From: Cyanobium sp. AMD-g
GTDB lineage: Bacteria; Cyanobacteriota; Cyanobacteriia; PCC-6307; Cyanobiaceae
NCBI RefSeq assembly: GCF_024346395.1
Contig: NZ_JAGQCW010000001.1
Span: forward strand, 62,001 to 126,000
Length of the DNA stretch: 64,000 nt
Reading direction: 5' to 3'
Positions 48,991 through 57,371 of this stretch are shown one piece after another; position 1 is the first letter of the stretch, and every line of letters begins with the position of its first letter. A program made the position numbers and the translations under genes. The notes below the pieces were generated by a model. The model searched no databases. It saw only the letters and a program-made list of their open reading frames with translations, and had not been told where the DNA came from.

Positions 48991-50154
48991 GTGAGCACAC
49001 GATCACGCCCCATCGACAACGAGACCGTAGGCAGCCCCTTTGTCGGTGCCGATTGTCACCGGTTGTTTTGCCACTGTCGTCCCCCTGGCCGGGCCACCCT
49101 GTCCGGCCTGGCCAGCGGCCTGGGACTCTGCATCGTCCTGGTGCTGGAGCCATTCCTGCCGGCCCGGGCCAACGTTGCCCAGGCCAATGGTCTCAACCTG
49201 GGCTGCGCCGCCGGCTTCGGCCTGGTGAACATCACCTCGAGCACCGTGCAGTCCACCCTGGGCACCAGCACCAATTCGCCGAACCAACTCAATGGGGGAA
49301 GCACGGTATCGGTGCCGGCGAGCTGCAGCGTCGCTCCACCGGCGCCTGCCCAGCCTTCCAACGGCTCGGCGCTGGTGGGCGGCAATGCCCGGCTCAATGC
49401 CGGATCAATCCAGGCCAATCAGATCTTCCGATCCCAGTCCGCCACCGTCAGCAATGGCCCCGGCACCACGGTGATCAGCAATGCCTGGACCGTCCAGGCG
49501 CAAGCGGATGCGCTGGCTGTGGCCACCTACATCGGCGGCATCAACGCGTCCAATTGCACCGTGGCGCTCAGCTCCTGCCAGTTCAACGATGCCGTCAACC
49601 TCTCAGGCAGCTTGACGCTCACCGGTGCGATGTCCGGCACCGGAGGTATCAACTACTACAACGTCCAGGCCGTTGGCCGTAATGTTGATCTGAACTTTGT
49701 GGGATCCGGGCGCGACTACTTCATCTTCAACATGCCAACCAGCCTGAACACCAACCAGGATTGGACGCTGCAGGGGGATGTGGATCCCTCCAGGATCATC
49801 TTCAACTTTGCTCGCCCAGGCTCCAATCTGAGTCTGAGCGGCTCCGATGTCTTCGGCACTTTCCTGTTAACGGGCGGCGGGACGGCCACGCTGAATCGCT
49901 CTGGCAATGGCAATCCTTCCAGCATCACAGGTTCTCTGATCGTCATCAACAACGGATCTGCCCTGAGGTTTGGTTCAGACAACCCCAGTAATCGCGTCAA
50001 TGCCGTCATCAACGGCAAGCCCTTCAACCCCACCGCTCTGCGCAGCGTTCCCGTGCCGGGGCCCCTGCCCTTGCTGGGGGGTGCCATCGCGTTCGGCTGG
50101 AGCCGCAGGCTGCGGCAGCGCCTCCATCAGGCCCAGCAGGCTCCTGGTCACTGA
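48991..50154 (+). CDS. Secreted protein with PEP-CTERM-like C-terminus
   Basis: 387 residues from a GTG. A hydrophobic segment (SGLASGLGLCIVLVLEPFLPA, about 37-57) looks like a signal peptide, making the proposed N-terminus long; a start nearer that segment is possible. The middle is Ser/Thr/Gly/Asn-rich beta structure resembling choice-of-anchor-A adhesins (GGINYYNVQAVGRNVDLNF, DWTLQGDVDPSRIIFNF). The end has a sorting-signal plan: VPVPGPLPLLGGAIAFGWSR followed by RRLRQRLHQ. That is the cyanobacterial exosortase type. Probably a surface protein. Confidence 0.75.
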   Translation: MSTRSRPIDNETVGSPFVGADCHRLFCHCRPPGRATLSGLASGLGLCIVLVLEPFLPARANVAQANGLNLGCAAGFGLVNITSSTVQSTLGTSTNSPNQLNGGSTVSVPASCSVAPPAPAQPSNGSALVGGNARLNAGSIQANQIFRSQSATVSNGPGTTVISNAWTVQAQADALAVATYIGGINASNCTVALSSCQFNDAVNLSGSLTLTGAMSGTGGINYYNVQAVGRNVDLNFVGSGRDYFIFNMPTSLNTNQDWTLQGDVDPSRIIFNFARPGSNLSLSGSDVFGTFLLTGGGTATLNRSGNGNPSSITGSLIVINNGSALRFGSDNPSNRVNAVINGKPFNPTALRSVPVPGPLPLLGGAIAFGWSRRLRQRLHQAQQAPGH

Positions 50155-55832: not shown

Positions 55833-55902
55833 GGGGGTGCTTACGGCGACGCTTGAGCCCTGGAGTGCTTCTTGCTAACAGATGGTCTGTTCTGCCCAGC
55901 CG

Positions 55903-57144
55903 ATGATCGATCTCGCCAGCTACCGGCCCAGGGGCGACAAACGCAACACGGCCTTCTTCGAGGAGTTCCTGCCCCGGGTCTATGCCCGCCGGGCCAGCTC
56001 GGGGCTGGAGAAGGTGGTGGGGCCGATGGCGGCCATCGTCATCCAGGTGGACCACGGCAACGGCTTGCCCTATCTGGCCGAGCTGGCGCTCACCGGCCCC
56101 TACCGCTACCAGGAGTGCTGGATCAACGCCACCCACCGCATCTACCTGCTCAAGGGAGGCGAGGCCTTTCCGCGCCTGATCGTGCTGGAGCCGCTGTTTG
56201 ATGATTTCGAGGATGAGGTGACGCGCTGGAACGCGATGTATCCCCTCTCGATCGACAAACCCAATGCCCGCTACATCGGCGAGATCTTTCGGGTGTCCTC
56301 CTGCCACGAGCTGCGCGCCATCCTCGAACCGCAGAACATCCGATTCGCCTATCCGGGGGAGACCGCCAACCCCTTCTATGCCTCCAAGCACCTCTGTTTC
56401 ACGTTTCTCTCCGACTACACCTACAACCGGGTCGGCTATGTGGACCGGCCCCTCGATGGACTGGCGACCCTGGATCTGGGCGATCGGGTGCTGCTCGATG
56501 ACGATGCCCTGGCGCCCTTGACGGACGCCGCCCGCCGCCACCGGGAGCACGGGCTGGAGGGCAAGATCCTGGGCATCGATCACCTGGCCACCCGGGTGCT
56601 GGCCGGTGAACGGGAGGACGCCATCCTCGAGTACCTGACGATGGTTCCCTACTACTACTGGGGCTCCTATGACATCGCCGAGATGAACTCCTCCACCAAC
56701 GTCACCCGCCACCCCTCGGTGGGCGACGACAAGTTGTCCCCGGCCCGTGTGTTCACGGCCAACAACACCCCCTCCTATCTCAATTCCCTGTCCAACCTGC
56801 CCATGCCCACCGAAGACTTCGTGCGTAATTTCGGCCGGCGCATGCATCACATCGCCTATGAGGTGGTCGATGGCGACAGCAACGGCGAGAAGAACGTCGA
56901 TGTGGTGGTGCACACCCTGCGCGAGCTCGGTATCCCCTTCCTCGCCGACATGGTGGGGGAATGCGGCGACCAGCCCAACCTGCGTCAGATCTTCTCGCGC
57001 AGCTCCCCCTACTCGCTGCTGATCACCGAGTACGTCGAGCGTTGCCTGGGCTACGACGGTTTCTTCACCCGCGAGAACGTGGCGGCTCTCACCGAGGCGG
57101 CGGGCCATGCGGAGCGCTACGAGCACGGCCACGTCTTCGACTGA
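55903..57144 (+). CDS. HPPD-like VOC protein
   Basis: 413 residues. The C-terminal part aligns by eye with 4-hydroxyphenylpyruvate dioxygenases: the iron ligands appear as His227 (GIDHLATRVL), His316 (MHHIAYEV; His315 adjacent) and Glu376 (ITEYVER), followed by the C-terminal helix region GYDGFFTRENVAALTEA. The preceding 220 residues are unlike the usual HPPD N-terminal domain. HPPD makes homogentisate, used for tocopherol in some cyanobacteria. Here the substrate is uncertain. I prefer the ATG at 55903 because an ATG seven codons upstream adds an unrelated leader. Confidence 0.75.
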   Translation: MIDLASYRPRGDKRNTAFFEEFLPRVYARRASSGLEKVVGPMAAIVIQVDHGNGLPYLAELALTGPYRYQECWINATHRIYLLKGGEAFPRLIVLEPLFDDFEDEVTRWNAMYPLSIDKPNARYIGEIFRVSSCHELRAILEPQNIRFAYPGETANPFYASKHLCFTFLSDYTYNRVGYVDRPLDGLATLDLGDRVLLDDDALAPLTDAARRHREHGLEGKILGIDHLATRVLAGEREDAILEYLTMVPYYYWGSYDIAEMNSSTNVTRHPSVGDDKLSPARVFTANNTPSYLNSLSNLPMPTEDFVRNFGRRMHHIAYEVVDGDSNGEKNVDVVVHTLRELGIPFLADMVGECGDQPNLRQIFSRSSPYSLLITEYVERCLGYDGFFTRENVAALTEAAGHAERYEHGHVFD

Positions 57145-57203: not shown

Positions 57204-57371
57204 ATGGGTGAGCTGATCGAGGTCGTGGGTCCCACCCAGAACTCCCTGCTGCTGCCGGCCTTCCTGGGGGTCCTCGGCGTCGGTTTCTTCGCCCTGTTCC
57301 AGTCCGATACCGGCAACAACGACGACGATGACTCTTCCCCCGGTGGCGGGCTGATGCAGCCCGTCGCCTGA
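57204..57371 (+). CDS. Small single-helix membrane protein
   Basis: 55 residues: a short N-terminus (MGELIEVVGPTQNSLLLP), one membrane helix (AFLGVLGVGFFALFQ) and an acidic, Asp/Ser/Gly-rich tail (NNDDDDSSPGGG). A -10-like TAAGAT lies at 57172-57177. Pattern and context resemble small thylakoid-associated proteins of picocyanobacteria, but the family is not recognised. It falls between two genes on opposite strands and its composition strongly suggests a real gene. Confidence 0.65.
   Translation: MGELIEVVGPTQNSLLLPAFLGVLGVGFFALFQSDTGNNDDDDSSPGGGLMQPVA

Follow-up and report, generated by a model that had tools for sequence, protein, structure and literature searches.

The 64,000-nt stretch of DNA analysed here (the window) is part of a 3.12-Mb, 13-contig genome and carries a gene for a 413-residue protein, for which we use the label HPL, a name of our own. 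An alternative ATG at position 55882 would add seven residues, but it is the less likely start because homologues in other phyla begin at the methionine of position 55903. The reading frame is intact and dN/dS is 0.06–0.16 against four orthologues (Nei-Gojobori), which rules out an artefact or pseudogene for the window copy. Searches of Pfam and NCBIfam at E values up to 1 returned no match to the protein, and the HPL profile matched no PDB chain at E values up to 10; the single protein sequence gave one PDB match, at E = 0.68, which we take as chance. Nine of 25 HPL members scored Pfam Glyoxalase_4, a VOC superfamily model, weakly (best E 1.7e-4), the window protein itself having no such match. 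The features on which the following analysis turns are collected in Table 1.

Table 1. Positions of the HPL gene and of its predicted structural and active-site features in the window.
Feature	Position	Strand	Basis
HPL gene (413-aa protein of predicted HPPD fold, uncatalogued family)	55903..57144	+	ORF; no Pfam, NCBIfam or PDB-profile match; 47 related loci
N-terminal half, residues 1–216: extra helix 17–33 and two VOC modules (~39–97, 122–196), predicted counterpart of the N-terminal domain in HPPD	55903..56550	+	AlphaFold, structural alignment
C-terminal, putatively catalytic domain, residues 222–405	56566..57117	+	profile-profile alignment of 216–404 onto HPPD 173–372, also 303–405
His227, predicted iron ligand 1	56581..56583	+	aligns to HPPD DH motif; invariant (67/67)
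His315-His316: predicted iron ligand 2 (His316), preceded by His315 where HPPD has Gln	56845..56850	+	aligns to HPPD QH motif; invariant
Gln362-Ile363-Phe364, counterpart of HPPD QIF motif	56986..56994	+	profile alignments
Glu376, predicted iron ligand 3	57028..57030	+	aligns to Glu of HPPD FFE motif; invariant
C-terminal helix region 388–405 (F388, N392, V393), V393 at the site of the HPPD stacking Phe	57064..57117	+	AlphaFold, alignments

A single scan of genome contigs recovered 47 HPL-related loci. The closest relatives of the window protein are named Cyanobium or Synechococcus, followed by proteins from Actinomycetota (67–68% identity), Planctomycetota and gammaproteobacterial MAGs (57–59%), Legionella (53–54%, with a partial copy at 58%) and a Gracilibacteria MAG (51%). 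One planctomycete class was sampled with 397 genomes, of which 26 match HPL, 25 of them along the whole protein. Within the genus of the window, 25 of 42 genomes match (20 complete copies, one running off a contig end, three broken and one reduced to a 23-residue remnant) and 17 do not, and none of the 23 cyanobacterial genomes sampled outside the genus has the gene. Phages, plasmids and viral contigs contained no HPL match, which excludes a phage or plasmid gene; canonical HPPD, searched for in viral contigs, likewise had no relatives there. Across 67 aligned HPL sequences from several phyla, 108 columns are invariant. HPL is a strongly conserved family, with no Pfam or NCBIfam model that matches the window protein, and apparently undescribed and unnamed: we found no paper on it, in a search that covered few subscription journals and does not prove absence from the literature.

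A tree of all 67 distinct HPL rows, midpoint-rooted for drawing only, places the 16 genus rows in one group (100/94) that joins the four Actinomycetota rows (100/100). This arrangement fits a lateral gain by the Cyanobium clade, in which HPL was probably acquired laterally and stands alone. The branch of the Gracilibacteria protein is very long and its position in the tree is correspondingly unsure. Two MAG rows labelled Synechococcus (L030 and L036) encode 58%-identical copies in other gene contexts and group with Blastopirellula (100/99), apart from Cyanobium, a result of either mis-binning or a separate transfer. Labels look wrong for two MAGs named Bifidobacterium breve (L017 and L018), whose protein and context are nearly the same as those of actinobacterium IMCC26207. 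A 262-residue planctomycete protein (L139:7668-8453) with no Pfam match was recovered by a weak match to the HPL profile (25.6 bits) and ends in a GFFT..NIAALT motif resembling the HPL C-terminus; it is possibly a single-domain relative of HPL.

The window protein was modelled with AlphaFold2 from an alignment of 25 rows, made up of the window protein and 24 of the 47 related loci, giving a mean pLDDT of 71 and a pTM of 0.78, with pLDDT mostly above 85 in residues 21–220 and below 50 in residues 287–314 and 352–413. A second AlphaFold model, of a Mariniblastus relative (L025, 36 rows), had a pLDDT of 74.7. Both models display the paired beta-alpha-beta-beta-beta modules of the VOC superfamily around a predicted metal site, arranged in the two-domain, four-module fold of HPPD, the enzyme that converts 4-hydroxyphenylpyruvate (4-HPP) to homogentisate (TIGR01263; human 3isq, Pseudomonas fluorescens 1cjx). 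All 50 Foldseek matches listed against the PDB were HPPD or hydroxymandelate synthase (HMS), with E values of 5.8e-9 to 2.9e-7. With VIA-align, the window model superposed on human HPPD 3isq with Z 18.6 (293 residues, 4.0 Å), and the best superposition of the Mariniblastus model reached Z 21.8 (313 residues, 3.5 Å, model residues 27–412 on chain residues 9–383). The predicted fold is equally that of HMS (2r5v, 3zgj, 7yvv), which superposes about as well as HPPD and is near the top for the Mariniblastus model (2r5v Z 21.0, 3zgj Z 21.1), the triad being placed there through the alignment to HPPD. Sequence identity in the structural alignments is low, at 8–16% to HPPD and 12–17% to HMS.

The first-pass annotation of this gene, made from the sequence, had described an HPPD-like protein with a foreign N-terminal half. 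The models do not bear this out: two beta-alpha-beta-beta-beta modules are predicted in that half, mostly at pLDDT above 85, and both models superpose on HPPD and HMS over all but roughly the first 27 residues, which removes a domain swap from consideration. The related statement that the first 220 residues differ from HPPD holds for the sequence, which lacks any Pfam, NCBIfam or PDB-profile match, and fails for the predicted fold, to which HPL adds an extra N-terminal helix. Two further proposals of that annotation stood. The C-terminal helix said to fit HPPD is predicted at residues 390–403 of the window protein and 390–407 of the Mariniblastus protein, at pLDDT below 50, and such C-terminal values in both models make the geometry of the active site tentative. 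The assignment of His227, His316 and Glu376 to an iron site of HPPD type was likewise supported: the three residues are at the stated positions, do not vary in any of the 67 aligned sequences and lie in the HPPD register.

This register was recovered by profile-profile comparison of HPL with 20 ORFs of HPPD type, taken from the genomes of carriers and of cyanobacteria; some are truncated, and 16 lie at places above the TIGR01263 cut-off. Without the register being imposed, all three predicted ligands (His-His-Glu, for Fe(II)) landed on HPPD ligands in an alignment of residues 216–404 that scored 36.5, compared with maxima of 25.1 for 60 column-shuffled HPPD alignments, 18.1 for the reversed alignment and 24.4 for six unrelated families. 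These controls, together with the conservation of the triad and the predicted structure, exclude a chance likeness of three residues. Other measures were lower: the probability assigned by hhalign itself was 31%, its global mode returned no alignment of HPL with HPPD, and HMMER in maximum-sensitivity mode, against a tiny database, gave best E values of 0.042 in one direction, which is not significant, and of 0.008 in the other, which is borderline. The kinship of HPL and HPPD in sequence is accordingly real but thin.

The VOC fold also serves enzymes without dioxygenation, and HPL could be a VOC-fold protein that uses its metal site for other chemistry, such as an isomerase or lyase, or a non-catalytic domain. 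The weak Glyoxalase_4 scores described above and the presence of an HPPD fusion protein (5hmq) among the structural matches are in keeping with this reading, as are two-domain dehydroshikimate dehydratases, which are reported to pair an HPPD-like domain with a dehydratase domain (PMC7442255). However, HPL keeps the 2-His-1-Glu triad, the QIF motif and the HPPD C-terminal helix all together, and the number of invariant columns among sequences from several phyla is that of a working enzyme. We therefore consider a departure from dioxygenase chemistry improbable.

The pocket around the predicted iron site departs from that of HPPD. In plant HPPD, Ser267, Asn282, Gln293, Gln307 and Asn423 are important for 4-HPP, inhibitors are stacked by Phe381 and Phe424, and the substitutions Q293A and Q307A lower catalytic efficiency about 3722-fold and 99-fold, respectively (PMC6750108). 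In HPL, the residues matching HPPD are Q362 and F364 of the QIF motif and N392 of the C-terminal helix, and S264 and N287 are candidate equivalents of plant pocket residues; all five are invariant. The correspondence between the plant residue numbers and the HPL motifs is in part presumed. Equally invariant are H315 and V393 at the positions of Gln307 and Phe424. Gln293 aligns to P302, with an uncertainty of a few residues; a glutamine between N287 and H316 occurs in only three of 67 rows, at residue 297 or 298, outside the columns aligned to Gln293 and Gln307. The YY..L segment found in HPPD between the strand of the second histidine and the QIF motif is absent. The substrate network of HPPD is thus partly kept (S264, N287, F364, N392) and lacks Gln293, Gln307 and Phe424, although by predicted structure the alignment of HPL to HPPD is nearly full length. 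The first-pass annotation had asked for both a full-length alignment and conserved substrate residues as marks of an authentic HPPD. From the aligned residues, we read HPL as a predicted 2-oxo-acid-binding iron centre with a changed side-chain pocket.

These substitutions bear on whether HPL is a very diverged but genuine HPPD that forms homogentisate from 4-HPP. The predicted fold, the triad and the kept QIF and N392 positions would allow it. A separate hppD gene was also looked for: TIGR01263 at E values up to 0.001 matched none of 37 genus genomes, that of the window included, so that HPL could be a replacement there, whereas 15 of 23 other cyanobacteria match this model, 11 of them over the cut-off. 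However, HPL itself gave no match to TIGR01263, the curated HPPD model (cut-off 277 bits), at E values up to 1, and five of 16 carrier genomes (two planctomycetes and three Legionella) already hold a canonical HPPD over the cut-off alongside HPL. In a different set of 16 carriers, only three, each of them a Legionella, had homogentisate dioxygenase over the cut-off, and two planctomycetes scored below it; the genome of the window had no match. HPL is, moreover, lacking from the 17 genus genomes noted above. Taken together, the genome tests for HPPD and homogentisate dioxygenase argue for a separate function, and the coexistence with canonical HPPD combined with the absence of Gln307, Gln293 and Phe424 equivalents, two of which are costly to lose in the plant enzyme, indicates that HPL is probably not an HPPD; we rate the HPPD reading as very unlikely.

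HPL also differs from HPPD in the genes that accompany it. ORFs around 63 loci, excluding that of the weakly matching 262-residue protein, were clustered by BLASTP, with wide flanks for 15 of the 25 full-length planctomycete matches. At least one of four partner genes occurs in 35 of 35 loci from Planctomycetota (27), Actinomycetota (4) and gammaproteobacteria other than Legionella (4). A type-II NADH dehydrogenase (NDH-2) is present in 25 loci, only 25–32% identical between groups, one copy matching the non-electrogenic NADH:ubiquinone reductase 9mqy at 401 bits. A malic enzyme is found in 21 loci, 41–93% identical to that of L046, which scores over the NCBIfam PRK13529 cut-off, and a protein with an FMN glutamate-synthase domain in 20 loci, 54–88% identical to that of L025 (Pfam Glu_synthase, 1.2e-83). 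The fourth partner, a TPP decarboxylase (15 loci, one outside Planctomycetota), comprises two enzymes about 24% identical to each other: seven are PoxB-like and eight of another type, for which the best score in the five scanned was indolepyruvate decarboxylase, below cut-off, while one searched against the PDB matched an ancestral reconstruction best, followed by bacterial pyruvate decarboxylases at about 560 bits. The PoxB-like gene of the Mariniblastus MAG (L025:3782-4190) is fragmentary, with just the start and the end recovered, side by side.

Many partner loci are co-directional, as in L132, which runs from the glutamate-synthase-like gene through HPL, malic enzyme and decarboxylase to NDH-2. 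Rieske, cytochrome b, CtaG or oxidase genes appear in seven planctomycete loci. Four further clusters are likewise found in two groups, one of which contributes just one locus in every case. Partner counts are not independent: one group contributes nine planctomycete loci whose sole partner is NDH-2, and two Blastopirellula loci seem to repeat a single context.

By clustering, and with some flanks short, none of the four partners was found in 17 Cyanobium, eight Legionella, two Synechococcus-labelled MAG and one Gracilibacteria MAG loci. Because ORFs are chosen greedily in the clustering, which dropped HPL itself from six of the 17 Cyanobium loci, absence was re-tested with tblastn, in which nine partner proteins had no match at 1e-5 at these 28 loci. 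The module is therefore not needed everywhere. Among the 15 genus loci with longer flanks (L002–L015 and L021), HPL lies between mfd and a ctp-type protease in 12, one shows ctp only, and L013 and L014 show neither; the broken copies in genomes G023 and G026 also adjoin mfd. Malic-enzyme homologues are encoded elsewhere in 34 of 37 genus genomes, whether HPL is present or not. Searches of the genus genomes with the glutamate-synthase and TPP partners returned mostly housekeeping-like relatives, the TPP search missing some decarboxylases encoded near HPL because the two types are only about 24% identical. Partner homologues elsewhere in these genomes are thus uninformative.

The quinone-linked neighbours, NDH-2 in 25 of the 35 loci and the cytochrome and oxidase genes in seven, raise the possibility of an enzyme akin to HMS or human HPDL that would supply the headgroup precursor of the quinone used by these proteins. 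HMS is among the best superpositions, and human HPDL, presumably of that fold too, makes 4-hydroxymandelate for the CoQ10 headgroup (PMC12257120). However, in the selection of neighbours that was scanned, none scored above the cut-off for an enzyme of quinone biosynthesis; an AMP-dependent ligase (L035) and an enolase-superfamily protein (L127) score menE and menC, respectively, below cut-off, with other models scoring better. HMS, too, uses 4-HPP, the HPL pocket differs, and the HPL carriers span phyla that differ in their quinones. A role in making a quinone headgroup is thus, in our view, a rather remote prospect.

We favour, at slightly better than even odds (about 0.55), the reading that HPL is a dioxygenase dependent on Fe(II) and O2 that acts on a 2-oxo acid different from 4-HPP and is linked to a respiratory module for the disposal of malate and pyruvate. 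Direct support comes from the family and its conservation, the predicted fold, the iron-ligand register, the gene neighbourhood and the selection on the gene, from which we infer iron binding, dioxygenase chemistry, the substrate class and the link to a pathway. The suggestion, made in the first-pass annotation, of another 2-oxo acid or a new dioxygenase is probably right. HPL would be a mononuclear Fe(II) dioxygenase of the two-domain HPPD/HMS fold, in which the keto and carboxylate oxygens of the 2-oxo acid would chelate the iron, O2 would decarboxylate the acid oxidatively, and the resulting ferryl would hydroxylate the same substrate. In Planctomycetota, Actinomycetota and gammaproteobacteria, the partner malic enzyme would convert malate to pyruvate, a pyruvate decarboxylase or PoxB-like partner would take pyruvate to acetaldehyde or acetate, and NDH-2 would send electrons to quinone and, in some loci, onward to oxygen through a bc/oxidase chain. 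The FMN glutamate-synthase-like protein would be a further partner, and HPL may serve as an additional, oxygen-dependent 2-oxo-acid decarboxylase. The occurrence of two different pyruvate-removing enzymes in one slot points to disposal of 2-oxo acids as the task of the module. A precedent for an aliphatic 2-oxo acid in the same fold is the alpha-ketoisocaproate dioxygenase of rat, although there it is an additional activity of a canonical HPPD (PMC7856465).

More tentatively, HPL might represent a new class of O2-dependent dioxygenase for a non-aromatic 2-oxo acid of central metabolism, acting with malic enzyme, pyruvate decarboxylase or PoxB, the FMN glutamate-synthase-like enzyme and NDH-2 in a decarboxylating module that consumes oxygen and has been exchanged among phyla, and of which Cyanobium would keep only the dioxygenase; we regard this fuller picture as a doubtful but conceivable one. 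The analysis gives an apparently unnamed enzyme family of at least four phyla, with strong conservation, a predicted HPPD fold and an altered pocket, an address in the genome, and an operon with two types of TPP decarboxylase in one slot narrows the candidate substrates to a short, assayable list.

In several Legionella loci (L037, L038 and others), the genes close to HPL encode a GDT1-type transporter, an LprI-like protein, an EntS-like MFS transporter or an uncharacterised protein of at least 1,638–1,747 residues. Directly downstream of HPL in the window, a 55-residue ORF with a hydrophobic stretch and no Pfam match occupies positions 57204–57371, DNA whose conservation in several genus loci was seen in a shifted reading frame. 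Further upstream, a 387-residue ORF without a Pfam match (48991–50154) ends in a C-terminus that presumably resembles a PEP-CTERM sorting signal.
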